Shown piece after piece: positions 36,420 through 64,000 of a stretch of DNA of 64,000 nt. The DNA lies in assembly GCF_001040845.1 (NCBI RefSeq), contig NZ_CP011941.1, positions 1,311,676 through 1,375,675 of the forward strand, in the 5' to 3' direction. Source of the stretch: Synechococcus sp. WH 8020. Its GTDB lineage: Bacteria; Cyanobacteriota; Cyanobacteriia; PCC-6307; Cyanobiaceae. The position numbers were made by a program, and so were the translations under genes. How positions within the stretch are numbered: the first letter of the stretch is position 1; each line of letters begins with the position of its first letter. The notes beneath the pieces were generated by a model. That model did no database searches and was not told the DNA's origin. It was given only the letters and a program-made list of their open reading frames with translations.

Positions 36420-37370
36420 ATGGCCCTCGAGCACCTGCGCATCGCCTCACGCCGCAGCCAGCTGGCCATGGTTCAGACCAATTGGGTCAAAGCAGAACTT
36501 GAAAAAGCCCACCCTGGTCTTGCCATCTCTGTTGAAGCAATGGCGACCCAAGGCGACAAAATCCTCGACGTTGCCCTAGCAAAGATCGGAGACAAAGGCT
36601 TATTCACCAAAGAGCTAGAAGCTCAAATGCTGGTGGGCCGTGCCGAGATCGCCGTTCACTCCCTGAAAGACCTCCCCACAAATCTTCCCGAGGGGCTGAT
36701 GCTGGGTTGCATCACCGAGCGGGAAGACCCCGCAGATGCCTTAGTGGTGAACAGCAAAAATGCTGAGTACACACTTGAGACACTGCCAGAGGGTTCCATT
36801 GTTGGAACCAGCTCTCTACGGCGCCTAGCCCAACTGCGCTATCACTACCCGCATCTTCAGTTCAAAGACGTTCGCGGAAACGTCATTACACGGCTCGAGA
36901 AGCTCGACTCAGGCAATTACGACTGTTTGATTCTGGCCGCAGCTGGACTCAGCCGACTCGGCTTCGGAGATCGAATTCACCAAAGCATCCCAGGGAACAT
37001 CTCCCTTCACGCGGTGGGTCAAGGAGCTCTAGGGATTGAATGCGTTTGCGATCGCCCCGAAGTGATGGAGCTGATTCAAGTGCTAAATCATGCACCAACC
37101 GCAGCCCGTTGCTTAGCGGAACGCGCATTCCTGAGAGTTCTTGAGGGAGGCTGCCAAGTGCCAATCGGCGTCAACACTCAAATCAAGGGAGACACGATCC
37201 AGCTCACGGGAATGGTGGCCAGCCTCGACGGCAAACGGCTGATCCGTGACGAGCAAGCTGGCTCCCTAGCCGACCCTGAAGCGGTGGGACGAGACCTCGC
37301 CCACAAGCTCAAGGATCAAGGAGCCGGCGAGATCCTTCAAGAGATCTTTGAACAGGAGCGAAGCCAGTGA
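36420..37370 (+). CDS. hemC: Porphobilinogen deaminase (hydroxymethylbilane synthase)
   Basis: Polymerises four porphobilinogens into hydroxymethylbilane in tetrapyrrole synthesis. 316 residues: [17 protein letters not shown] start, [40 protein letters not shown] and the cofactor-binding Cys in [12 protein letters not shown] (around residue 245). Length and motifs are standard. With hemL (57.6 kb) and hemH (1.7 kb) it belongs to one pathway, but these are scattered. Convergent with the L,D-transpeptidase gene. Confidence 0.97.
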
Positions 37371-37379
37371 TCGCTGGGC

Positions 37380-37967
37380 TCAACGCGTAATTTCTACAGC
37401 CATCCCCACTTCCACGTGGTCGTAGAGCTGTTGAACATGCGCATTCAACATGCGCACACAGCCATTGGATACGGCCGCTCTGGTTTTCACCCAATGGGGC
37501 CAGGGAGTGCCATGAATGCCAAATTGATTGGGTCCACTGCGTAGGAAGCCAATCCAGCGATGTCCCAACGGGCTTTGAGGACCGCGTTTGGGATGCACCT
37601 TTCCTGACTTGGTGCTCTGGTACTGAGGGTTAATCATCATGTTCTCGACCTTGAACATCCCAGAAGGCGTGGGGGTCTTGGGATCACCAATCGCTACCGG
37701 CCATGGGCCCAGGGTCTGACCCTGTCGCACAACGCTGATTTGCCTTCGGCCCAAGTCCAAGACAACACGCCCCTCCACGGGGTGACGCACAGCCATCGAC
37801 ACATGGGTGGGCTGAGATCGAGACAGAGCTGGAGCCGCCACAAGCAAAGAGGAGGCGAGCAACGCCACTGGAAGGCCAGAAGCGCAAGCAGTGCATTTAA
37901 GACTCACGAGTAGACGGCCAAGACTCACTGGTCTCAACGTATGCACTGTGCGAAAAAAAAACCGCAC
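37380..37967 (-). CDS. L,D-transpeptidase (YkuD family)
   Basis: 195 residues. The YkuD catalytic box is AAVSNGCVRML (Cys170), with the conserved His in FGIHGTPWPHWV about 18 residues earlier. The enzyme crosslinks peptidoglycan or attaches proteins to it in the periplasm. A signal peptide is clear at about residues 22-50 (hydrophobic LPVALLASSLLVAAPALS). If translation begins at the GTG 37905-37907, the signal is of normal length and the protein has 175 residues; the longer start is reported but less certain. Tail-to-tail with hemC. Confidence 0.88.
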   Translation of the reverse strand: MRFFFRTVHTLRPVSLGRLLVSLKCTACASGLPVALLASSLLVAAPALSRSQPTHVSMAVRHPVEGRVVLDLGRRQISVVRQGQTLGPWPVAIGDPKTPTPSGMFKVENMMINPQYQSTKSGKVHPKRGPQSPLGHRWIGFLRSGPNQFGIHGTPWPHWVKTRAAVSNGCVRMLNAHVQQLYDHVEVGMAVEITR

Positions 37968-38035: not shown

Positions 38036-39013
38036 ATGAAGCACCAACTGTCCTGGCCCGCAGGAGACGCACAGCTGTTCCTACAAGCCATGCAAGAAGT
38101 GGGCTCCATGGGAGGCATTGCAAATATTGAGCCCATCACCATGGAAATGATGGAATCCATTCAGAACTTTGTTCTGAAGTCGTCCATCGACCTGAACCAT
38201 CTAAACGGGATCAAACCTGAAGATCTATCAGCAAAAATATGCGACAGAAACAAACGAGAGCAACTCCTTCAAATTCTTATTCTTATCCCTTATGTTGATA
38301 TGAAGGTCGACCCCAGGATGGTCGCGATTGTAGATAATTTTGCAGATCACTTAGAAATTCACCCCCAAACCATTAAAGATCTACATCGAGTTCGAGACAA
38401 CCACTTAAAGCGACTTCTAATTGATTACGGACGCAGAAGTCTAAGCGAATTCTTAGGCCTCGACTCAGCACCGAAAGTCATCAAAGGTGTCATCACAATG
38501 TTCCATCAAGCCATCGGAGATCGGTCTGTCTCCGAACGCTATCAACAACTAGAGACCTATCCAGAAGGTAGCCTAGGCCATACTTTATTTCATTGGTATC
38601 GAGACAGGAATTGGGCACTACCCGGGGAGAAAAAAAGCACATCTGAATTGCTCTTAAATCATGATTGCTGCCACATCCTTGGAGGATTCAATACAGATGT
38701 GCAAGGCGAGATGAATGTAGCGGCATTTCAAGCTGGGCTTTTTGACGATGGATTTGGATTTGAATCACTTCTAGAAGTCATCCTAGATTTTCACTTAGGG
38801 AAAGCTTTCAGCACTGTTGGAAACATCATTCCACCCTCAACTGGAGCCTTTCACCCAAACGATGCGATGGCTGGCTATGAAAAGGGTCTAGCATGCAATG
38901 TGAACCTAATTAAAGATTTAGACTTCTGGCTAGAAGCTGACCAACCCGTTTTAACACTGAGAGACAAATTCAACATTCCAGCCTCATCAGGACCTCTTTT
39001 AATCAAGCCCTAA
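38036..39013 (+). CDS. TerB-like domain fused to a Coq4-like domain
   Basis: 325 residues, AT-rich relative to neighbours. The N-terminal half contains a helical stretch like the TerB (tellurite resistance) domain: REQLLQILILIPYVDMKVDP. The C-terminal half holds HDCCHILGGFNTDVQGE, which is the HDxxH-x11-E zinc motif of Coq4 (His209, Asp210, His213, Glu225). Coq4 is a ubiquinone-synthesis scaffold with decarboxylase/hydroxylase activity in mitochondria and alphaproteobacteria; cyanobacteria make plastoquinone, so the role here is unknown. ATG 38036 is used; the frame also has GTG at 38003. The resemblance is motif-based; the TerB assignment is tentative. Confidence 0.78.
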   Translation: MKHQLSWPAGDAQLFLQAMQEVGSMGGIANIEPITMEMMESIQNFVLKSSIDLNHLNGIKPEDLSAKICDRNKREQLLQILILIPYVDMKVDPRMVAIVDNFADHLEIHPQTIKDLHRVRDNHLKRLLIDYGRRSLSEFLGLDSAPKVIKGVITMFHQAIGDRSVSERYQQLETYPEGSLGHTLFHWYRDRNWALPGEKKSTSELLLNHDCCHILGGFNTDVQGEMNVAAFQAGLFDDGFGFESLLEVILDFHLGKAFSTVGNIIPPSTGAFHPNDAMAGYEKGLACNVNLIKDLDFWLEADQPVLTLRDKFNIPASSGPLLIKP

Positions 39014-39087: not shown

Positions 39088-39675
39088 TCAGTCAACCAAC
39101 TTGGGATCAATATCAGTCATGTAGCGAGCTTCGCAGCTCTTGATGATCTCCACAGCTTTTTCGGTGCCAAAAAATCCATTCACCGTGCAGGTTCCTGGCT
39201 TCTTCAAATCCTTGTAATGCTCCCAGTAGTAAGTGGTTTCCTTTTTCCATTGTTCTCCAAGATCTTCGAAGCTCTTGATGTGATCAACGCGTTTGTCATC
39301 GGCCAAAACGGCGATCACTTTGTCATCAACCTCACCACCATCATCAAAGGTCATAATCCCGATGATCCTTGCTTCCACAATCGACCCCGGAATCAAGGGT
39401 TCGGTCACATTCACGATCTCAATATCGAGAGGGTCACCGTCCTCATCCCAAGTGCGAGGGATACAGCCATAGGCAAAGGGATAAGCCAGAGACGAGTAAC
39501 CAACCCGATCCAACTTCAGATGGCCTGTTTCCGTAATGAGCTCGTACTTGTTGATCGTATTGGAGTTGAGCTCCACGATGGTGTTGAGGCGTAGCTCAGC
39601 CTCATCAGCAAAGGCCGGCAGCACATGAAGCAGGTTGGGCATGCTTCGGCTTGGAGCCTGGTCGAGATTGGCCAT
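39088..39675 (-). CDS. ppa: Inorganic pyrophosphatase, family I (copy 2)
   Basis: 195 residues, longer than copy 1. Motifs: NTINKYELITETGHLKLDRV, AYPFAYGCIPRTWDEDGDPLD (canonical DGDPxD metal site) and VIAVLADDKRVDHIKSFEDL. The extra C-terminal helix and the sequence place it closer to the longer bacterial/plastid type of family I enzyme. Two family I genes in one genome may reflect separate expression or location; I cannot tell which is the main one. It ends beside the bidirectional terminator. Confidence 0.92.
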   Translation of the reverse strand: MANLDQAPSRSMPNLLHVLPAFADEAELRLNTIVELNSNTINKYELITETGHLKLDRVGYSSLAYPFAYGCIPRTWDEDGDPLDIEIVNVTEPLIPGSIVEARIIGIMTFDDGGEVDDKVIAVLADDKRVDHIKSFEDLGEQWKKETTYYWEHYKDLKKPGTCTVNGFFGTEKAVEIIKSCEARYMTDIDPKLVD

Positions 39676-51791: not shown

Positions 51792-52133
51792 TCAATACTC
51801 ATAAAAGCCAATTCTGTTGCCATTTTTATGCACCATGAACCGTTCATCGGTTGGATCAGGTCGCCAAATACCTCCGCGCTTATCCACAAAAAAACCGTCG
51901 CCTTGATCACTAAATTGATGACTATATACTTCGACCACTCCATCTGCCCAGATCATCGTCATTGTAAATGGATTTTGCCTCACCGTGCATTGCATTGACA
52001 TATCATTGAAGTAGCAAATTCCTTTATACTCAGCTGCTTTTACGGGAGCAGATACAATCAATGAAGATCCAATAGCAAATGTAGCAATAGCTAACGAGAA
52101 AAGTTTCATCCGACGAACATTTGAGTCTTTCAT
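51792..52133 (-). CDS. Hypothetical secreted protein
   Basis: About 113 residues from ATG 52131-52133; a longer frame to 52361 adds residues that look random. N-terminal signal peptide: KLFSLAIATFAIGSSLIVSA with cleavage near APVKAAEY. The mature part has two Cys (YKGICYFNDMSMQCTVRQ) and a beta-rich end with GVVEVYSHQFSDQGDGFFVD. No family recognised. An alternative start is the ATG at 52107-52109. AT-rich codon use suggests accessory origin. Confidence 0.62.
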   Translation of the reverse strand: MKDSNVRRMKLFSLAIATFAIGSSLIVSAPVKAAEYKGICYFNDMSMQCTVRQNPFTMTMIWADGVVEVYSHQFSDQGDGFFVDKRGGIWRPDPTDERFMVHKNGNRIGFYEY

Positions 52134-52420
52134 CCCTTGACGCAATAGCAGAGCCTGCCGTGCGTGAACAGCATTCATTGAAGACAATGGAATGAGTGGC
52201 AATCCAGCAACAGTTATCTCAGAAAAGAATTTCATGTAAGAAGTGACCATCCCTTTGGTCCCAGTATCATCAAATCGGCAGAAAAAGGCATCACCCGTTC
52301 TGTGGAATGGAAGATCTGGATCATCCCCAAAAAGAACTAAAAGCTTACTCCCAGCTGCCAAACTATCAGCCTGCCTCTCTCTTCTTCAACCAATAAAGGC
52401 AGCATCCAGTCCAACTCAAC

Positions 52421-52537
52421 CTAAGCAGCGTCATCCCTTCCAAACTCTTCAATGCCCAGTGCCAGCCGAGCCCCATGGTCATCGGCGTCATTCGCTCGCA
52501 GCACCATCAACAGCTCCTGCCGCAGAGCCAGCGTCAT
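52421..52537 (-). CDS. 38-residue acidic peptide
   Basis: Short frame ATG 52535-52537 to TAG 52421-52423, giving MTLALRQELLMVLRAN followed by DADDHGARLALGIEEF. An amphipathic helical pattern and the acidic DADD turn look like a conserved small protein rather than a chance frame, but at this size chance cannot be excluded. An in-frame stop lies seven codons upstream of the ATG. No function known. Confidence 0.35.
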   Translation of the reverse strand: MTLALRQELLMVLRANDADDHGARLALGIEEFGRDDAA

Positions 52538-52747
52538 CTTCTGATCGCAGAGAATTCACCAGACAGGAGGAAAAACACACCGATGAAACCCCAAAAATCC
52601 GCTCTGCCAGAGCCGCCCTAGGGGTGCTCCTGCTGCTGAGAGAGAAAGGTAGAAGGCTTCAGACAATTTTGCCAAAAATCTAAGCAAACTTTCATGTAAG
52701 GAAGATCAAGTACGGCAACACTTAAAAGACTCATCAATCCGCCATTC

Positions 52748-52960
52748 ATGAAACTTACCAATGCCTGGGAAGTGGGTTGGCTTGGTCAGTCATCAGTTGC
52801 GTTATTTTTAATTGTTCTTGTCTGCGCTTTTTATTCAACGGTCAAGAATACTAATCAAGGAGCCAACACAGCTAGGTCTTCCTTAGAGCAGATCAACAAA
52901 GAATTTTGCGAAGGCATGCGCAAGCGAAACTCAACCATCAAATTAGACATTTGCAGTTAG
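52748..52960 (+). CDS. Small single-pass membrane protein
   Basis: 70 residues: hydrophobic segment SVALFLIVLVCAFYSTV at about 16-32, followed by a polar C-terminal tail with two Cys (FCEGMRKRNS; LDICS). No family recognised. ATG start is preceded by an AT-rich leader. Lies in the accessory stretch with no near neighbour on the same strand. Confidence 0.5.
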   Translation: MKLTNAWEVGWLGQSSVALFLIVLVCAFYSTVKNTNQGANTARSSLEQINKEFCEGMRKRNSTIKLDICS

Positions 52961-53198
52961 TGATGTTTTTAGACAATTTTGTCAAAATCATCGCGTGACA
53001 ATCTCCTAAACAATGGATTCCAGACTGAGCATTAGATCTCTGTAGACATTCCCATTTGTTCTAACGAGAACGCTCTCTTTTTAATCCTAGTCTTGCTCTT
53101 ACTTGAGGTATTGCAATCTCCGCTGCCGCCAATAAAGCACAAGTCTCTTTAAGTGGTGCGATTGGCGATTCTGGAAGGGCTGAGTATTTGATTTCGAT

Positions 53199-53651
53199 TC
53201 AATAGCGGAACGCTGTCACCACCTCGTAGACACCTTCGTTCTTCCATTTAACCCACTTACCAGTTTCCATTGCATCATTTCTCCTTCCTACAATTGTATT
53301 ATTTGCTTTATCGTTGACGCAAACACGAGAGAGGACAAGTTCCTTTCCATTCATGGGATATCTCCTCGTCAAGGAGGGATTTACATAATCACAACTTCCT
53401 TGTCCTTCAAAAAGGCCAAGGGCATGTCGAGCATTCTCCCAGGATATTGATTCATGGACATCACCAGTCTGTCGCCACCAAGTACAGGCAGCCTCTGCTT
53501 TCTCAAGTGAGGAGTAAATCTTAGGCTTGCCAGACGATGCTCGATTAACCACTTTGCCAACAATTGGAAGAATCACACCAAGAGACAACAAGAGGATGAT
53601 CGCCTTGCCTTTCCTGGACTTCCAGTCCATCTTATTAGTTAAAATTTTCAT
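53199..53651 (-). CDS. Membrane-anchored hypothetical protein
   Basis: 150 residues: basic N-terminus (MKILTNKMDWKSRKGK), one membrane helix (AIILLLSLGVILPIVGKVV), then an extracytoplasmic domain with three Cys (AACTWWRQ, GSCDYVNP, SRVCVND). No family recognised. AT-rich codon use. Lies next to the integrase gene on the same strand (downstream of it). Confidence 0.62.
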   Translation of the reverse strand: MKILTNKMDWKSRKGKAIILLLSLGVILPIVGKVVNRASSGKPKIYSSLEKAEAACTWWRQTGDVHESISWENARHALGLFEGQGSCDYVNPSLTRRYPMNGKELVLSRVCVNDKANNTIVGRRNDAMETGKWVKWKNEGVYEVVTAFRY

Positions 53652-53805
53652 TGCTTAGCTCCGTTTCAGAAGAGAGGTTAAGCCATAAAAAAGCAGTGGA
53701 AAGCCCCTTTCATAAACAACTTGGCTGATAACAGCAGTGACCTGGGTCATTATATCTAACAAACAAGTATCAGCTGTTTTGTTTAGATGCCAGGATTGCT
53801 GGCGA

Positions 53806-55071
53806 TCAGTCCAATAGTTCCATCACGGCCGCCACATCCGACCAAGACGGTCTTGTCCAACCCATAACTACTTTTGGCATCCCAGTCTGTGTGTGTCTGG
53901 TTATTTCATACAGTAAGCAAGGAGAGATATTTTTGGCTCCTAGCTGGGTGATGACATGGGAGCGGATTGCATGGCTTTTGATTGCATATCGTTTCTTACA
54001 GTTCACCGTCCAGCGATGACTGAACAACTTCAGAGAAGGATCATATGACTTTGGAAAGATCAGCTCATCAGAAGTGTTCTCGACTACATCAGGCAGGAGC
54101 TCTTCTAAAACTGCTTTTAGTTTCATGCAAATTGGAACCTTACGTACATCTTTTTCTCCACCTTTCAGCCGTCGTTCAATCGTTTCGGTCTGCCACTCAA
54201 TCAAGCGTATGGATAACTCGGACATGTCTATGTCGGAATATCTCAAGCCTTGGTGATCCATTGCACGACAGCCTGTATAAAGCTGAAGGAAGAATCCAAG
54301 ATCTTTTAGCTGGAGTGCCTTGACCTTTGCTTGTTGAACAAGTTCAGGGGCTAATGCATCATCTTTCGTTGATTCTTTTAGTTTCTTTTTCAGGCCAGAC
54401 CATACATTTATTTGAACTTCACCGGCATCAATAGCCCAAGTCCAGAAGGCGAGCATTGTTCCAAGTTCTGTCTTGACACTTGAAGGTTTCTTTTGCTCCA
54501 GAAGGTGGTCCTTGTATGCAGCTGCTTGCTTGCGGTTGATGCCAGCTAGGTGGTCACTGCCATACCAATCAGCCAAACGCCTAAGACGACCTCTCCAGGA
54601 CAGCTCTGTCGTAGCGGCAGGAGCTTCAGCCTTGAGTCTTCGGTCTATCCACGTCAGATAGCTGCTAGAGCCGCTTAGAGAGGCTTCTAGCTGCTGAGGA
54701 AGCTTGGGCTGAGGCTCATCAGGCAAACCCGGCTTTTCAAGCTCTTCACGGCTGTAGAGCACTGAGTTGATCTGGTCATCAGTGAGACCAACGCTTTTAA
54801 GACGTTGTTCGAGATGGATCAGAACAATGCCATCAACATCAGGACCACCGTCTTGCTCGAACTGCTGACCTATGGGATCTAAACCGCGCTTGTCTTGGAA
54901 GAGCTTGTCGATCTCCAGAACAATCCGAGTTCGATTCTTGAGAGCTTCCGCATGCGTCTTGCCAGCCTTCCTGACCACGGCGCTGGTACCCATGACCTTC
55001 CTGAGCGGATTGGGGACAGCAACACGGATGTAAAAGCCGCTACGGCCTGGGATAGTTGTGATGGCGCCCAT
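53806..55071 (-). CDS. Integrase-like protein lacking the catalytic Tyr
   Basis: 421 residues with phage-type integrase layout: N-terminal region (ITTIPGRSGFYIRVAVPNPL), a SAM-like DNA-binding domain (LSWRGRLRRLADWYGSDHL), and a catalytic domain with an Arg in YTGCRAMDHQGLRYSDID, HxxR as HAIRSH (His367, Arg370) and His393 in ITRHTQTG. The nucleophile Tyr that should follow is absent: the stretch MPKVVMGWTRPSW has Trp405 where related integrases appear to have Tyr. It is therefore probably inactive or uses another residue. It closes the AT-rich accessory stretch; no att repeats were recognised. Confidence 0.82.
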   Translation of the reverse strand: MGAITTIPGRSGFYIRVAVPNPLRKVMGTSAVVRKAGKTHAEALKNRTRIVLEIDKLFQDKRGLDPIGQQFEQDGGPDVDGIVLIHLEQRLKSVGLTDDQINSVLYSREELEKPGLPDEPQPKLPQQLEASLSGSSSYLTWIDRRLKAEAPAATTELSWRGRLRRLADWYGSDHLAGINRKQAAAYKDHLLEQKKPSSVKTELGTMLAFWTWAIDAGEVQINVWSGLKKKLKESTKDDALAPELVQQAKVKALQLKDLGFFLQLYTGCRAMDHQGLRYSDIDMSELSIRLIEWQTETIERRLKGGEKDVRKVPICMKLKAVLEELLPDVVENTSDELIFPKSYDPSLKLFSHRWTVNCKKRYAIKSHAIRSHVITQLGAKNISPCLLYEITRHTQTGMPKVVMGWTRPSWSDVAAVMELLD

Positions 55072-58958: not shown

Positions 58959-59044
58959 ATGCGACGCTGAGCCTTGTTTTACTGGTCACTGGCGCTCAAG
59001 CCAACGAGACGAAACCATCTCGACAACAACCCTCTTGGGTTGAT
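58959..59044 (+). pseudogene. Out-of-frame signal peptide of the porin gene
   Basis: ATG 58959 reads MRR then TGA. In the porin's own frame, the same bases encode LSLVLLVTGAQA followed by NETKPSRQQPSWVD, a clear signal peptide and mature start, but this frame has no ATG or GTG in this region. Adding one base near 58967 would join MRR to LSLVLLVTGAQA and give a textbook signal peptide. A one-base deletion, real or a sequencing error, is the simplest account. Confidence 0.65.
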
Positions 59045-60163
59045 TTGAATCTGGATTTCACAGCTCAACCGTTGGTTGGAGTTTCAGGAGGACTAGAGCC
59101 GTCCTCAAGTAGTTGGATGCAACAAGTTGCCGCGGGACTCACCCTCAGCACGGGCCTCAACAAAGATCGAAGCAACTGGACAGATTTAGATCACTGGCAA
59201 ATTCAGTTGGGACTAAGTCAGTTCGCAGGCAATCCAAATCTCAATGATCAACTAGGAACAGACTATCCACTGCAAAGCTTGGTCACTCCAACAGGAATGT
59301 GGATCACACAAGCATCATTAGAGCGAATCGAAGGCGATAACAAACTCGATTGGAGCATGAATGCTGGAGTAATCGCAATCGGAAACAATTTAATGGATAT
59401 ACCGATCCTAGATTACTATATAAACGACACATTAGACACACCTTACAATCTATCCGTGATTGGCTATCCAATCACACCACTTACCGCGACAGGAGCACAA
59501 ATAGGCTTGCACCACAATCAACTAGGAAGCCTTGATTATGCCTACTACAACTTAGACAAGACCCGTCAAATTGCGGGCTCTCTAGGGGTTACGCCACTAA
59601 CACCGAAGCTCGAAGGCAATCTACAACTTGTCCAGTGGTCGATCAATCCGTTAGCCAATTCGAAACAAACAACAACAGAGGAAGGAGAACAAAACATGCC
59701 CGACCCGCTCATTCAATTGGGCGGCTACATTTCAACTACCAACTTGGACGTAAGCTCGAACAAAAATATGGGCGAGGGTACCAATCGAGGCATTTACGGA
59801 GCAGTCACTTGGCCAATATCCCTACCGATTGGGAAAGACAGCAGGATCTGGATCTCTAGCAACTTCAGTCTCGATCCAAACAACAATCCACTAGCAAGCT
59901 ATACAGCTGCAGGACTGCTCAGCCAAGGCATCTTGCATGGCAGGCCTCAAGATGTACTGGCAATAGGCTTAAACCGAAGCGGATTCAGTCGCAGCATTAC
60001 CCCCGACCAAAGCTACGAAGGGGTCATCGAACTCAACTACAAGATACAAATCTCTGAGCGCCTACAAATACAGCCGCTCATGCAATGGATCATCAACCCC
60101 TCTGGGGTAGGATCTCAATCAACAATCTGGGCAACAGGAGCTCAAATCAACCTTTCTATATAA
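59045..60163 (+). CDS. OprB-family carbohydrate porin, N-terminus frameshifted
   Basis: 372 residues from TTG 59045; the true protein should begin about 30 codons earlier in a signal peptide that is now out of frame (58959-59044). The beta-barrel core shows alternating aromatic/polar strands and ends with QINLSI, while IQLGGYISTTNLDV, RPQDVLAIGLNRSGFSR and ISERLQIQPLMQWIINPSG fit the OprB carbohydrate-porin family. Its likely role is uptake of sugars or other small polar solutes across the outer membrane. AT-leaning codon use. The gene is probably disrupted unless the frameshift is an artefact. 6 bp from the DUF481 gene. Confidence 0.8.
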   Translation: MNLDFTAQPLVGVSGGLEPSSSSWMQQVAAGLTLSTGLNKDRSNWTDLDHWQIQLGLSQFAGNPNLNDQLGTDYPLQSLVTPTGMWITQASLERIEGDNKLDWSMNAGVIAIGNNLMDIPILDYYINDTLDTPYNLSVIGYPITPLTATGAQIGLHHNQLGSLDYAYYNLDKTRQIAGSLGVTPLTPKLEGNLQLVQWSINPLANSKQTTTEEGEQNMPDPLIQLGGYISTTNLDVSSNKNMGEGTNRGIYGAVTWPISLPIGKDSRIWISSNFSLDPNNNPLASYTAAGLLSQGILHGRPQDVLAIGLNRSGFSRSITPDQSYEGVIELNYKIQISERLQIQPLMQWIINPSGVGSQSTIWATGAQINLSI

Positions 60164-60169
60164 GTTCGC

Positions 60170-61126
60170 ATGGGGATACAAGCAACAAGCCTGCTCTATA
60201 TCTTGAGACAAACCGTATACCTCTCGATTGCCTGTAATGCAACAGCAATGCTGCTTCTCGATGGCAGCTCAAGGAGTAGCATCGCAGAAACAGTGACCTT
60301 AACCCTCAGCAACGGCGACAAAATAAAAGGAACATTGATAAAAAGCGAAAGCAATGAGCAAACAACAGTCATCAATCATCCCAGCCTTGGAAGACTGGAA
60401 ATTCAAGCCAATTCTCTGAAAGCAAAACCAAAAAAAAAGCGCTGGACAGGAAGCTTCTCAGCTGGGGTAACAGGCTCAAATACAGACCAAGACTACGATC
60501 TCGATAGTACATCTCAACTGATTACACAATACAAGGATGAGGTAAACCTGCTTTCCTTTAAAGCCAATACAGAATATGATTTTTCAAGAAGCGAGGATCA
60601 GAAAAAAGGATCTACAGACACCAACCAAGGGCAAATCGACTTACGATATTCATACACATTCTCAGGAAAGTTAAGTGCCTATGCATCAAATATTTATGAG
60701 TACGACATGCTGAATCAAGTTGGCAAAAACAATCTTATCAACTCGATTGGGCTTGGATATGACCTCATTAAAACTGATACAACAACACTCAACTTCTCGG
60801 CAGGACCCGCTGCACAGAGTGTCTGGGGAGGCCCTGGTTGCAATACTGATCAATACTGTGGCAACACTTACTTTGGAAGTAGTGCCCGAATTGGTTTCGA
60901 CTGGGTGCCAAACAACTTCTTTAATCTTTCGCTAAGCAATCAATTTACAGGCTCCTATGTTGCCGGAGTGTCTCCGAGCAATAACTTCTCAGGAACAATC
61001 AAAATCTATCCATTCGGAAACAAAAAGCTTTTCACATCGCTCAATGGACAACTCATTTACAATGCATTAACCACTCCACAAATAGACAATAGTTTTTCAT
61101 TACAATTTGGCACACAACTTTTTTAA
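60170..61126 (+). CDS. DUF481 outer-membrane beta-barrel protein
   Basis: 318 residues: N-terminal hydrophobic stretch (TVYLSIACNATAMLLLDGS), a small beta domain with LSNGDKIKGTLIKSES, a Lys-rich linker (KAKPKKKRW), then the DUF481 barrel: WTGSFSAGVTGSNTDQ, GLGYDLIKTDTTTLNFSAGP, RIGFDWVPNNFFNLSLSNQF and a C-terminal Phe. DUF481 proteins are outer-membrane proteins of unknown function, sometimes salt-induced. It follows the porin gene by 6 bp. The frame is intact. Confidence 0.85.
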   Translation: MGIQATSLLYILRQTVYLSIACNATAMLLLDGSSRSSIAETVTLTLSNGDKIKGTLIKSESNEQTTVINHPSLGRLEIQANSLKAKPKKKRWTGSFSAGVTGSNTDQDYDLDSTSQLITQYKDEVNLLSFKANTEYDFSRSEDQKKGSTDTNQGQIDLRYSYTFSGKLSAYASNIYEYDMLNQVGKNNLINSIGLGYDLIKTDTTTLNFSAGPAAQSVWGGPGCNTDQYCGNTYFGSSARIGFDWVPNNFFNLSLSNQFTGSYVAGVSPSNNFSGTIKIYPFGNKKLFTSLNGQLIYNALTTPQIDNSFSLQFGTQLF

Positions 61127-61687
61127 GGTTGTTCAGCTACGACAGCTCCTTCCGCCCCGCGAGGATCAGCCACTCCATAACTACCGCTATTGAATTTCGC
61201 CTCCACCCTGTTTGCGGAACCCATGGAGCGAGTGAACCGCAATGCATGGCCTCATTGTTTTAAGAGCTCAAGAGTGACGGGACTGAATCCCTGCTCAAGC
61301 TGCAAGGAATCAGGCCAAAGCTGACGATGAATCCTGGGTGTAGCGACACTTGTCGCAAGATACAGACCATGAACAAACCGATTTAAAACGCCTGCAGAAC
61401 AGTCGTCATAATCCTGCTCCCACAAGGGCTCCCCGTCGCCAACCAAGAATTAACCTCTTGATTCAGCACAATTATCGGCATCATTAAGCTGAAGGGTCTT
61501 CGACGTGGAGCAACTGCATTTTGCTCCCCTCTACCAAGCCATAGGCATTAGGAACACCAGCCTTGGCGGTAAAGTCTGCCAGCTCATGATTCAAGAGAAA
61601 ACCAGAGCCTGGAACGGCGATTCCATTGCCATAAGCAGAATTCAATGCCGTGGTTAATGCCACCAATGAGCCATCACTTTCAGCCAT
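61123..61687 (-). pseudogene. Gamma-glutamyltranspeptidase remnant
   Basis: Only the C-terminal part of the enzyme remains, in three frames. Segment A (61484-61687) reads SLVALTTALNSAYGNGIAVP and LADFTAKAGVPNAYGLVEG. Segment B (61383-61484) reads IIVLNQEVNSWLATGSPCGS. Segment C (61123 to about 61377) reads ATPRIHRQLWPDSLQLEQGF, is broken by TGA at 61252-61254, and continues GHALRFTRSMGSANRVEAKF to a natural-looking stop at 61123-61125. These match consecutive GGT C-terminal motifs. The nucleophile-bearing N-terminal portion is absent, so the gene is dead. Its stop overlaps the DUF481 stop. Confidence 0.85.
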
Positions 61688-62054
61688 TGTCCCGCCAAAG
61701 CAGCCGCAGAAGGATGAGAGTTAAGGGTTAATTGAGGACAGATACTCAACGATCGGGCAAAACCCCTCAACCTTAGTCAACACACACAAAAGAATCAAAA
61801 GGCCATTAAATACCATCAAATCGTTCATAGAAACAAGCTCCTGAGGAAACGACACCAACATCAAAAGGAATGATTCCCCTGCCTCATCAAAACACCAAGA
61901 ACAAGCCCATAGATCGCTAATTTCCCTCTCAAAAGCGTGCCGCCAAGACAAATTGCACCACAACAGCCTGATCAGCAGGACGTTCTCATTGGCTGGCAAC
62001 AATTCATACTAAGGACCACCAACTTCAAACGAAAATCTGAGCAGAAACTGAAAT
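61688..62054. other. Gene-free stretch between GGT remnant and yajQ
   Basis: 367 bp. No coding frame is convincing; a 93-codon minus frame (61721-62002) shows no domain. The lost GGT upstream part is not recognisable here. No RNA gene or repeat found. Confidence 0.4.
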
Positions 62055-62549
62055 TCAGCGATAATTTTCAAATTGAAGCGGAACATCTAACTCTTCTTCC
62101 TTACTTTTCACGAGTTGAATTGCAGCCTGAAGGTCATCCTTACTCTTACCCGTGACACGAAGGCTTTCCCCTTGAATCGCAACCGTGACCTTCTTCAATT
62201 CATCGCGGACCATTTTGCTGAGCTTTTTAGCAAGCTCTTGACTGAGCCCCTTGCGCAATTGAATAACCTGCTTCACACGATTCCCCCCAACAGCTTCAGG
62301 AGTTTGGAAGTCAAAAATCTTGAGAGAAAGATCTCGCTTCGTTGCTTTAGTCCTCAAAATATCTTCAACAGCTTGCAATGTCATGTCACTAGCTGTGGTG
62401 ATAACCACTTCCGTTTCCGCCAGTTCAATCTCTGTACCTGAATCCTTAAGGTCGTAGCGATTGCCAACATCTCGTCGAACTTGATCCAAAGTATTGACCA
62501 GCTCCTGGCGGTCAAAATCGGAAACCACATCAAATGAATATGACGCCAT
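62055..62549 (-). CDS. yajQ: YajQ-family nucleotide-binding protein
   Basis: 164 residues of the YajQ/UPF0234 family: YSFDVVSDFDRQELVNTLDQ, DLKDSGTEIELAETEVVI, DVVTQFL-type region absent but SDMTLQAVEDILRTKATKR present, then SQELAKKLSKMVRDELKKV and TGKSKDDLQAAIQLVKS at the end. Known members bind cyclic di-GMP or nucleic acids. Length matches. An inverted repeat lies 30 bp upstream of its start. Confidence 0.94.
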   Translation of the reverse strand: MASYSFDVVSDFDRQELVNTLDQVRRDVGNRYDLKDSGTEIELAETEVVITTASDMTLQAVEDILRTKATKRDLSLKIFDFQTPEAVGGNRVKQVIQLRKGLSQELAKKLSKMVRDELKKVTVAIQGESLRVTGKSKDDLQAAIQLVKSKEEELDVPLQFENYR

Positions 62550-62873
62550 AGTGCTTTGCTGCTAGTCCGAACAGGTCTTCGCTCAACTTACTCACGTTGA
62601 GCGTTCATGGCAGGATCAACAAACAAACTCATAGCACCCCGGTGGTTCTGAACCTGAAAAGGAGAGTTTCAGAGCCCTAAAGCCCGCAAGCCATTGCAAC
62701 GCCCATGCCATGCTGGTCGTTGCGACAGGAGTTGCAAAAGAACAAACCAAGCAAAGCCAGCAAAGATTGAGTCAATATTATTTTAAAAGGATTTACCAAG
62801 GTTTGAGATTAAGAATATTTCGCAACTAATTTATAATTGCCAAAGGCTACCGACGCAGCATTTCAGGATCTCC
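62550..62873. other. Intergenic region upstream of yajQ
   Basis: 324 bp between divergent genes. Contains the hairpin CGCTCAAC...GTTGAGCG (62580-62603) near the yajQ start and an AT-rich half closer to 62874. No coding frame or RNA gene recognised. Confidence 0.45.
62580..62603. promoter_or_regulatory. Inverted repeat upstream of yajQ
   Basis: CGCTCAAC (62580-62587), loop TTACTCAC, GTTGAGCG (62596-62603): 8 perfect base pairs. It lies in the 5' region of yajQ (start 62549) and could be a protein-binding site, a leader hairpin or an orphan terminator. No T-run follows on the plus strand. Confidence 0.35.
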
Positions 62874-63116
62874 ATGACAACACCTCTCGATCAAGCACGC
62901 GCCATTGCCAATGAGATGGAAAAACTTGCGGATCAGCTAACGCCTAATGTAATTCGAGCCGCTCGGTCTGATAAAGAGGGACGCAAAAATCTCGATCGTC
63001 TTGAATACGCCCTTGGAACGATTGGGAAGGCACTCATCCTTACTGATTACAGCGTAGATGAGCAAAAAGATCTCGATAAACTAGAGGAGTTCAGAGAACT
63101 GCATGGAAAGAAGTAA
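62874..63116 (+). CDS. Conserved hypothetical helical protein
   Basis: 80 residues, all helical: ARAIANEMEKLADQLTP, RLEYALGTIGKALILTD and DLDKLEEFRELHGKK. No family recognised; no signal or membrane segment. A soluble three-helix protein is likely. ATG start with an AT-rich leader. Confidence 0.7.
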   Translation: MTTPLDQARAIANEMEKLADQLTPNVIRAARSDKEGRKNLDRLEYALGTIGKALILTDYSVDEQKDLDKLEEFRELHGKK

Positions 63117-63159
63117 GACAGCGAAGTCTTAAAGAAACCTGCGCAAACAAAGATCCACG

Positions 63160-63345
63160 CTATGAGTTTGACATTTCGAATGCAGCTTGCTCTAGGTCTT
63201 TCCAGGTCAAATCAATCAAAGGGAGTGCTTCATCAATTTCTTTTTTCAAGCATGAGGCCTCATCACTTAGACCCTGCTCGATGTACTGCTGATATTTAAG
63301 GTATTGGTTGACCCAGATCAGGATCGTGGGGGTGTTGTTCGTCAT
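63160..63345 (-). CDS. Small hypothetical protein
   Basis: 61 residues from ATG 63343-63345; the longer frame to 63465 looks non-coding upstream. Helical with IWVNQYLKYQQYIEQGLSDE and LPLIDLTWKDLEQAAFEM. No family recognised. Convergent with the helical gene upstream. Confidence 0.6.
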   Translation of the reverse strand: MTNNTPTILIWVNQYLKYQQYIEQGLSDEASCLKKEIDEALPLIDLTWKDLEQAAFEMSNS

Positions 63346-63694
63346 GCTTCTCGTATGGCGAGACATTCCATCAACAGGGGACGAAGATGAAATGCCATTG
63401 GGCATCATCAAAACCAAAGCTAATCGATTCATCCGCTTGTAAGGCCTGGATGAGCGAGAGCTCACTTGCTATCTCGCGAGTCAAGCCTGCCCCAGAGGGG
63501 ATCAGTGGCCGAATTCCAGAAACTACAGGGTTTCCCTGTTCCAAGAACTGAGCATCAGAGTGTTGTCAAAGACACCACTGTGAACCCAAAAAATTGATCA
63601 ATCACCTCAAAGAATCAAAAGCATTCAACTGGCTTGGACGAATCAAGTCCATTCCTTCTAAAGCGATTCTCAATCAATGCCCCCAAGCAAAACA
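63346..63694. other. Gene-free stretch near the right edge
   Basis: 349 bp. No coding frame is convincing. A short stem ACAGGG (63525-63530), loop TTT, CCCTGT (63534-63539) is present but lacks a T-run. No RNA gene found. Confidence 0.4.
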
Positions 63695-64000
63695 CTAAAA
63701 ATCATGTTTTTCACCCTCAACCACCATCGAAACCAATAAAGGCCAGTAGCGATAGCTCGATCGAATCAAGAGAGCCCAAATGAACCAGAGAAGCCAAAAA
63801 TTAACGCTTTCATCGATGGCTTGACCACAGTCCTGATCCAACCGCTTGGCCACAGAACTTGAAACTTGCTCTTGCAACGAGCGATTCATCGCTGCGCACA
63901 CCCTCCCGGCGGGAAGACGGAACAGTTCTGCAGAAAGCCAGGCTGGAGCCAAAGCCACTGGGATCGCAACCAACCATCTGCCGACAAATCGCTCTAAGGA
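63695..64000 (-). CDS. Hypothetical membrane protein (5' end outside window)
   Basis: Minus-strand frame open to the window end. The partial protein reads RFVGRWLVAIPVALAPAWLS, a hydrophobic signal-like start, then MNRSLQEQVSSSVAKRLDQD, and a second hydrophobic helix NFWLLWFIWALLIRSS before the C-terminus. A TTG at 63971-63973 is a candidate start, but the hydrophobic reading continues upstream without a stop to position 64000, so the gene probably begins outside. Function unknown. Confidence 0.55.
   Translation of the reverse strand, partial: SLERFVGRWLVAIPVALAPAWLSAELFRLPAGRVCAAMNRSLQEQVSSSVAKRLDQDCGQAIDESVNFWLLWFIWALLIRSSYRYWPLLVSMVVEGEKHDF

Follow-up and report, generated by a model that had tools for sequence, protein, structure and literature searches.

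A TerB-like domain joined to a Coq4-like domain with a conserved putative metal site in cyanobacterial proteins

The window, that is, the whole stretch of 64,000 nucleotides of the Synechococcus sp. WH 8020 genome analyzed here, encodes a 325-residue protein in which a TerB-like helical domain is followed by a Coq4-like domain with a putative metal site. Such a joining of domains, with a Coq4-type site in a cyanobacterium, was proposed in an earlier note made from the sequence alone; the present analysis supports it and finds the site conserved, and on sequence comparison the protein belongs to a TerB-Coq4 two-domain family as defined here. The reading that we prefer, to which we assign a probability of about 0.4, is that the protein is an accessory metalloprotein with a lipophilic substrate and is induced on demand in a related clade of six genomes. 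This is a two-domain variant of a known fold, and Coq4 homologues in cyanobacteria are already known. The family is easily overlooked because standard models fail to call many fused members; searches of the open-licence literature for TerB and Coq4 together returned only unrelated titles, and a search for 'Coq4 family protein' in Synechococcus returned no match. The features discussed below are as follows.

36420 to 37370, plus strand: hemC (porphobilinogen deaminase), synteny marker
37380 to 37967, minus strand: YkuD L,D-transpeptidase (PF03734), divergent neighbour of conserved position
38036 to 39013, plus strand: gene for the TerB-Coq4 two-domain protein, 325 aa (open reading frame, alignment of relatives, dN/dS)
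38036 to 38455, plus strand: N-terminal TerB-like helical domain, residues 1-140, with the acidic DG...E signatures largely gone (model, profile)
38456 to 39010, plus strand: C-terminal Coq4-like domain, residues 141-325 (profile; predicted structure, 6e12, Z 12.2)
38660 to 38710, plus strand: putative metal-site motif HDxxH-x11-E, residues 209-225 (motif search, alignment)
39088 to 39675, minus strand: ppa (inorganic pyrophosphatase), synteny marker

The open reading frame starts with the ATG at 38036, and 39013 is the last base of its stop codon; a GTG located 33 bases 5' of the ATG would yield 336 residues, and the ATG is preferred because the alignment of relatives begins there. Residues 209-225 read HDCCH-x11-E (letters HDCCHILGGFNTDVQGE), so that both the location of the reading frame and the motif with the Coq4 spacing are as the earlier note had described them. 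An exact motif appeared by chance in 392 of 200,000 shuffles of the window protein. Relatives were gathered from the window's own genome, 149 genomes of relatives and 291 genomes of the class, and 42 full-length two-domain (fusion) rows, the window protein included, make up alignment A1, in which R133, G181, H209, D210, H213, E225 and G284 are invariant (42/42). The exact HDxxH-x11-E occurs in 53 of the 54 two-domain rows (all but L116) and in 27 of the 28 stand-alone Coq4 rows; judged on sequence, the x11 spacing lies within the HDxxH-(x)10-13-E pattern of the Coq4 superfamily. Among same-locus orthologues, dN/dS ranges from 0.07 to 0.15 for the eight computable pairs (two more distant pairs are saturated), which by this measure places the gene under purifying selection.

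The window protein scores 16.6 bits (E 0.0051) against PF05019 (Coq4) in a Pfam scan, below the gathering cut-off of 22.9 bits for curated membership; 20 of the 42 A1 members match this model at E 0.01 or better, and an NCBIfam scan of the window protein gave no match. More sensitive comparisons point to Coq4. Searching the PDB with the A1 profile put the Coq4 structures 3msq (E 2.9e-10) and 6e12 (Alr8543; E 2.6e-9) first, not an unrelated family, and hhalign aligned A1 with stand-alone Coq4 at a probability of 99.0 (E 3.7e-18). An AlphaFold2 model of the full-length protein was built from A1, that is, from fusion sequences only (pLDDT 87.8, pTM 0.87). With this model as the query, Foldseek placed 6e12 and 3msq at the top, followed by 2h5n (6e12: E 5e-4, probability 1.00), with modest TM-scores (6e12, 0.33/0.49 at an rmsd of 11.6; 0.31-0.33 by query length for 6e12 and 3msq). 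VIA-align gave Z 11.0 for 6e12 (rmsd 5.3, 164 aligned residues) and 10.2 for 3msq; 2ou3 (Z 10.0) and 2h5n (Z 8.7) came after these, and the row below them fell to 4.5. The C-terminal 185 residues modelled alone (pLDDT 83.6) matched 6e12 at Z 12.2 (rmsd 3.8 A over 138 aligned residues); 3msq followed at Z 10.6, the row after it dropped to 2.2, and the Foldseek TM-scores were modest (0.55/0.49). The alignment behind this model (A4, 42 rows) includes six stand-alone Coq4 sequences, hence the model is not wholly independent. According to the tool's own note, VIA-align Z values of 10-12 can arise by chance for helical bundles; here a chance match is disfavoured by the gap in Z to the next row together with the sequence-profile match. 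The Coq4-like helical fold is thus predicted both in the full model and in the C-terminal domain alone, and profile similarity to the superfamily agrees with it, as the earlier note had anticipated. The phmmer matches to cellulosomal scaffoldin (best E 0.013) were judged spurious, given that the profile search puts Coq4 first.

For the N-terminal half, the full model matches the TerB structure 2ou3, whose title names a tellurite resistance protein from COG3793 (rmsd 4.5 over 135 aligned residues, with the alignment straying to residue 266), and, further, 2h5n. The first 120 columns of the A1 profile match many stand-alone proteins in the class genomes; five examples of this type form alignment A3, and all three of those scanned combine TerB, above the Pfam cut-off, with Mo-nitro_C. 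A1 and the five A3 proteins align in hhalign at a probability of 98.0 (E 2.5e-13). A TerB-like fold ahead of the motif, as claimed earlier, is therefore predicted by both structure model and profile. Canonical TerB, understood as a PF05099 match over the cut-off plus the acidic signatures, is another matter: the window protein has no PF05099 row up to E 10 (within the HMMER filters), the model reaches E 0.01 or better in only 2 of the 42 A1 members, and the acidic DG...E signatures present in the A3 proteins are mostly lost from the fusions in the alignments. Nor are there ter genes beside the window gene, which sits in the stretch from ykuD to ppa, close to hemC, as do its same-genus orthologues (13/13). 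The aligned span with Alr8543 begins at residue 108 of the full model and that with 3msq at residue 104, both within the TerB half, which suggests that helices of TerB take the place of those at the N-terminus of Coq4.

The closest known systems each share one half of the protein. Alr8543 of Nostoc PCC 7120 (6e12) and Npun02000094 (3msq) have the C-terminal fold and the HDxxH-x11-E site in common with the window protein, but are stand-alone proteins with 18-21% identity to it in structural alignments; relative to stand-alone cyanobacterial Coq4 proteins, the window protein carries TerB where they have N-terminal helices, and its loop preceding the motif is shorter. The TerB proteins (PF05099/COG3793; 2ou3) and the cyanobacterial TerB plus Mo-nitro_C proteins resemble it in N-terminal fold and profile; in the latter, Mo-nitro_C takes the C-terminal position held here by Coq4, and the acidic residues are those that the fusions have mostly lost. 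Cyanobacteria, the window's host included, make plastoquinone, and in this respect, as well as in its score under the PF05019 cut-off, the window protein differs from the human and yeast members of that family. By published description, the motif and its spacing are the same in human COQ4, as H163...E179 (PMC9774615). That source describes Nostoc Alr8543 as the first Coq4 homologue to be solved, with Mg at the motif and oleic acid in structure 6e12 (PMC9774615). The function of COQ4 was long unsettled; according to a recent report, COQ4 in human cells acts as an oxidative decarboxylase that swaps the C1 carboxyl of coenzyme Q precursors for a hydroxyl (PMC11495197).

In the full-length tree, the 54 two-domain rows fall into several well-supported subfamilies. 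In the tree of the Coq4 domain alone, the 54 fusions lie on one side of a branch and the 28 stand-alone proteins on the other (support 95/95), a branch recovered in 94% of 200 bootstrap trees; on these trees, in which long branches are many, a single origin of the fusions is favoured, not proved. Relatives of the window protein are found in many cyanobacterial families, and matches to A1 over at least 250 of its 321 model positions in 21 of the 291 class genomes; in G266 the match is split and in G023 broken. A scan of the named genomes yielded 2 distinct loci, both in Synechococcus, the second with a broken copy. The distribution of the family is thus patchy, with broken copies, and among the loci compared there is no gene neighbour that recurs across subfamilies. 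Six genes of the Coq4 superfamily are present in the window's own genome, two of them fusions (the window gene and L072) and four stand-alone PF05019 genes. As an aside, L072 and a stand-alone Coq4 gene of another genus (L080, genome G039) adjoin the same gene, a hexapeptide/nucleotidyl transferase that, named by eye, looks like glmU; ubiD lies ~10 kb from the former and ~5 kb from the latter.

The gene order hemC-ykuD-gene-ppa is conserved in all 13 intact same-genus orthologues (13/13), with extra open reading frames in the interval in some genomes, and in three further same-genus genomes (G013, G019 and G023) the locus is occupied by fragments of the broken gene. The orthologue in another genus (G090) has a different location and a GC content of 0.41. 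The earlier note had observed that the gene is AT-richer than its neighbours, consistent with transfer. The observation is locally true, as the GC content is 0.444 for the gene and 0.539 for the window overall; even so, a neighbouring gene of 118 codons is just as AT-rich (0.432). The suggested transfer fares worse: GC is low (0.43-0.47) in only five of the 14 same-locus genes, the window's included, and 0.55-0.56 in the other nine, so that AT-richness is confined to one sublineage, and the gene tree and the hemC+ppa tree agree in their main groups, with finer branches that differ or lack resolution. Recent acquisition of a gene descended from alphaproteobacterial Coq4, for which a GC content below that of most neighbours would speak, is highly improbable in view of the shared locus across the genus, these congruent groups and the presence of relatives in many cyanobacterial families. 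A plasmid or phage origin was rejected, the window protein having no match among plasmid and phage sequences. The hemC-ppa interval may be an insertion hot spot. At L124:4008-9075 (G265), it holds a member of another TerB-Coq4 subfamily, 22% identical to the window protein, together with a PhyH-like gene and another gene of unassigned family. Elsewhere in the window, positions 52000-55000 and 59000-64000 have a GC content of 44-49%, below that of most of the window, over spans far longer than the gene studied.

Cyanobacteria, to our knowledge, lack ubiquinone, and the earlier note had found a Coq4-type site in one of them odd in itself and had turned to a role other than the native quinone. 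The first point does not hold, given the solved Nostoc homologue, the four stand-alone copies in this genome and the presence of PF05019 in 66 of the 291 genomes sampled across the phylum, some of which lie outside the window's class (63/282 near-complete ones), and in 68 of 151 genomes of the family (55/95 near-complete); a cyanobacterial Coq4 should nevertheless not be read as ubiquinone synthesis. The second point is reasonable, with a better argument provided by UbiD, the family of the plastoquinone-precursor decarboxylase. UbiD is found, under the same sampling, in 132 of the 151 family genomes (89/95 near-complete), and four genomes with UbiD (G040, G068, G085 and G253) have neither an A1 match nor PF05019; G059 and G292 likewise have UbiD and no PF05019, with no A1 match among the matches listed. 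A core role in plastoquinone synthesis is unlikely because one genome has six superfamily genes and many cyanobacterial genomes show none, and the three broken same-locus genes in the genus argue for an accessory role; the window gene is thus probably outside the core pathway. That it supplies plastoquinone-9 biosynthesis with a step still missing, a ring hydroxylation or an oxidative decarboxylation, is accordingly an improbable reading, disfavoured by the same broken copies, by the limited spread of PF05019 in the phylum and by near-complete genomes that have UbiD and show no Coq4 relative. In its favour are the C1 oxidative decarboxylation carried out by human COQ4 (PMC11495197), a review that regards the cyanobacterial pathway as incompletely worked out (PMC7133116), and stand-alone Coq4 genes located directly 3' of ubiD on the same strand at 2 of 20 stand-alone loci, both of another cyanobacterial family (L133:3243-5636 in G289 and L139:5001-7390 in G282). 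This adjacency keeps a quinone-pathway role possible for some paralogues. Separately, no UbiD was detected at 1e-10 in six small near-complete genomes, namely, G056 and five of genus g18 (G047, G163, G175, G194 and G232), and PF05019 was likewise not detected in these five.

The preferred reading, an accessory protein that is inducible in some relatives, draws on a neighbouring part of the tree. In the full-length tree, the window's 14-row subfamily clusters with two further groups, a clade of six rows drawn from other cyanobacterial families and a Synechococcus group of four rows, in no settled branching order; in the Coq4-domain tree, the six-row clade groups with the four-row group. At all six loci of the former (L115, L117, L118, L119, L120 and L122), a divergent TetR gene lies opposite the fusion gene, and the intergenic region contains an operator-like palindrome with perfect arms, TGACCGACnnGTCGGTCA (6/6). 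Allowing up to one mismatch, the palindrome occurs once per genome, always at the fusion locus (6/6), and the reversed control pattern 0 times, with the proviso that four of the six assemblies are <90% complete and could be missing further sites; among 149 loci, it is found at those six places only. The six TetR proteins, compared with 67 loci, match only their own six loci and one 48-residue stretch in L082. TetR proteins typically act as local regulators through an operator, and such a regulator with a single putative operator is the simplest reading of these loci. At the loci of the window's subfamily and of the four-row Synechococcus group, searches found no TetR gene and no palindrome; the window itself has one site at 3 mismatches, with 2.12 expected by chance. 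An inducible role for the window gene is hence carried over from its relatives, and the absence of the arrangement from the equally close four-row group lowers our confidence in the preferred reading.

Under the preferred reading, the protein would be a metal-dependent member of the Coq4 superfamily fused to a degenerate TerB domain. By homology to Nostoc Alr8543, the site formed by H209, D210, H213 and E225 would bind an ion beside a hydrophobic pocket, and the TerB helices, which seem to occupy the place of the N-terminal helices of Coq4, probably shape this pocket or dock the protein. The substrate, we would guess, is lipophilic or a prenylated aromatic from outside the core plastoquinone pathway; a guess of lower confidence is that the reaction is of the Coq4 type, converting a ring carboxyl to a hydroxyl, or a related oxidation. 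In the six-genome clade, the divergent TetR probably switches the gene through the single operator, and the protein probably acts on its own in response to a single lipophilic signal or toxicant. Bacterial Coq4 relatives, some of them with an apparent one-operator switch, offer a tractable route to the chemistry and ligands of the HDxxH-E site. A bolder version, tentative and on balance doubtful, sees here an as yet undescribed family of metalloenzymes that are self-sufficient, with a TerB scaffold in the place of the Coq4 N-terminal helices, and that oxidize or decarboxylate a quinone-like lipophilic signal or toxicant; one clade would use a one-gene response governed by a dedicated TetR and a single genomic operator, and Coq4 chemistry would be in use well outside quinone synthesis.

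The protein could instead be non-catalytic, a lipid- or fatty-acid-binding or stress protein in which the metal holds the fold and TerB provides a membrane or stress link. We consider this somewhat unlikely, as the four putative ligands do not vary even among rows of 16-20% identity, which points to chemistry, and the acidic signatures of TerB are degraded. TerB is linked to stress, which would fit such a role, as would the TetR arrangement in the related clade. The oleic acid and Mg described for 6e12 (PMC9774615) are in line with it as well.

A further alternative, in our view quite unlikely, is that the protein tailors a specialized metabolite whose gene cluster lies nearby or far off. At L123:6827-14000 (G245), a divergent TerB-Coq4 gene is followed by a run of genes on the same strand, three of them Rieske genes and two with AurF-like and ferritin-like matches below threshold, but this member is a very long branch. 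As a secondary line of evidence, Nif11-type genes occur at 5 of the 56 loci compared (Pfam confirms 3/3 scanned), and a Coq4 is listed in a synechococsin cluster of strain MITS9509 (PMC10783134). Against such a role, none of the 13 same-genus orthologues in the hemC-ykuD-ppa interval has a cluster of this kind recognized beside it. Arrays of Nif11-domain genes lie near TerB-Coq4 members at L059:8239-14409 (six copies) and L074:12317-13591 (three copies), and these genes are possibly prochlorosin-type precursors.
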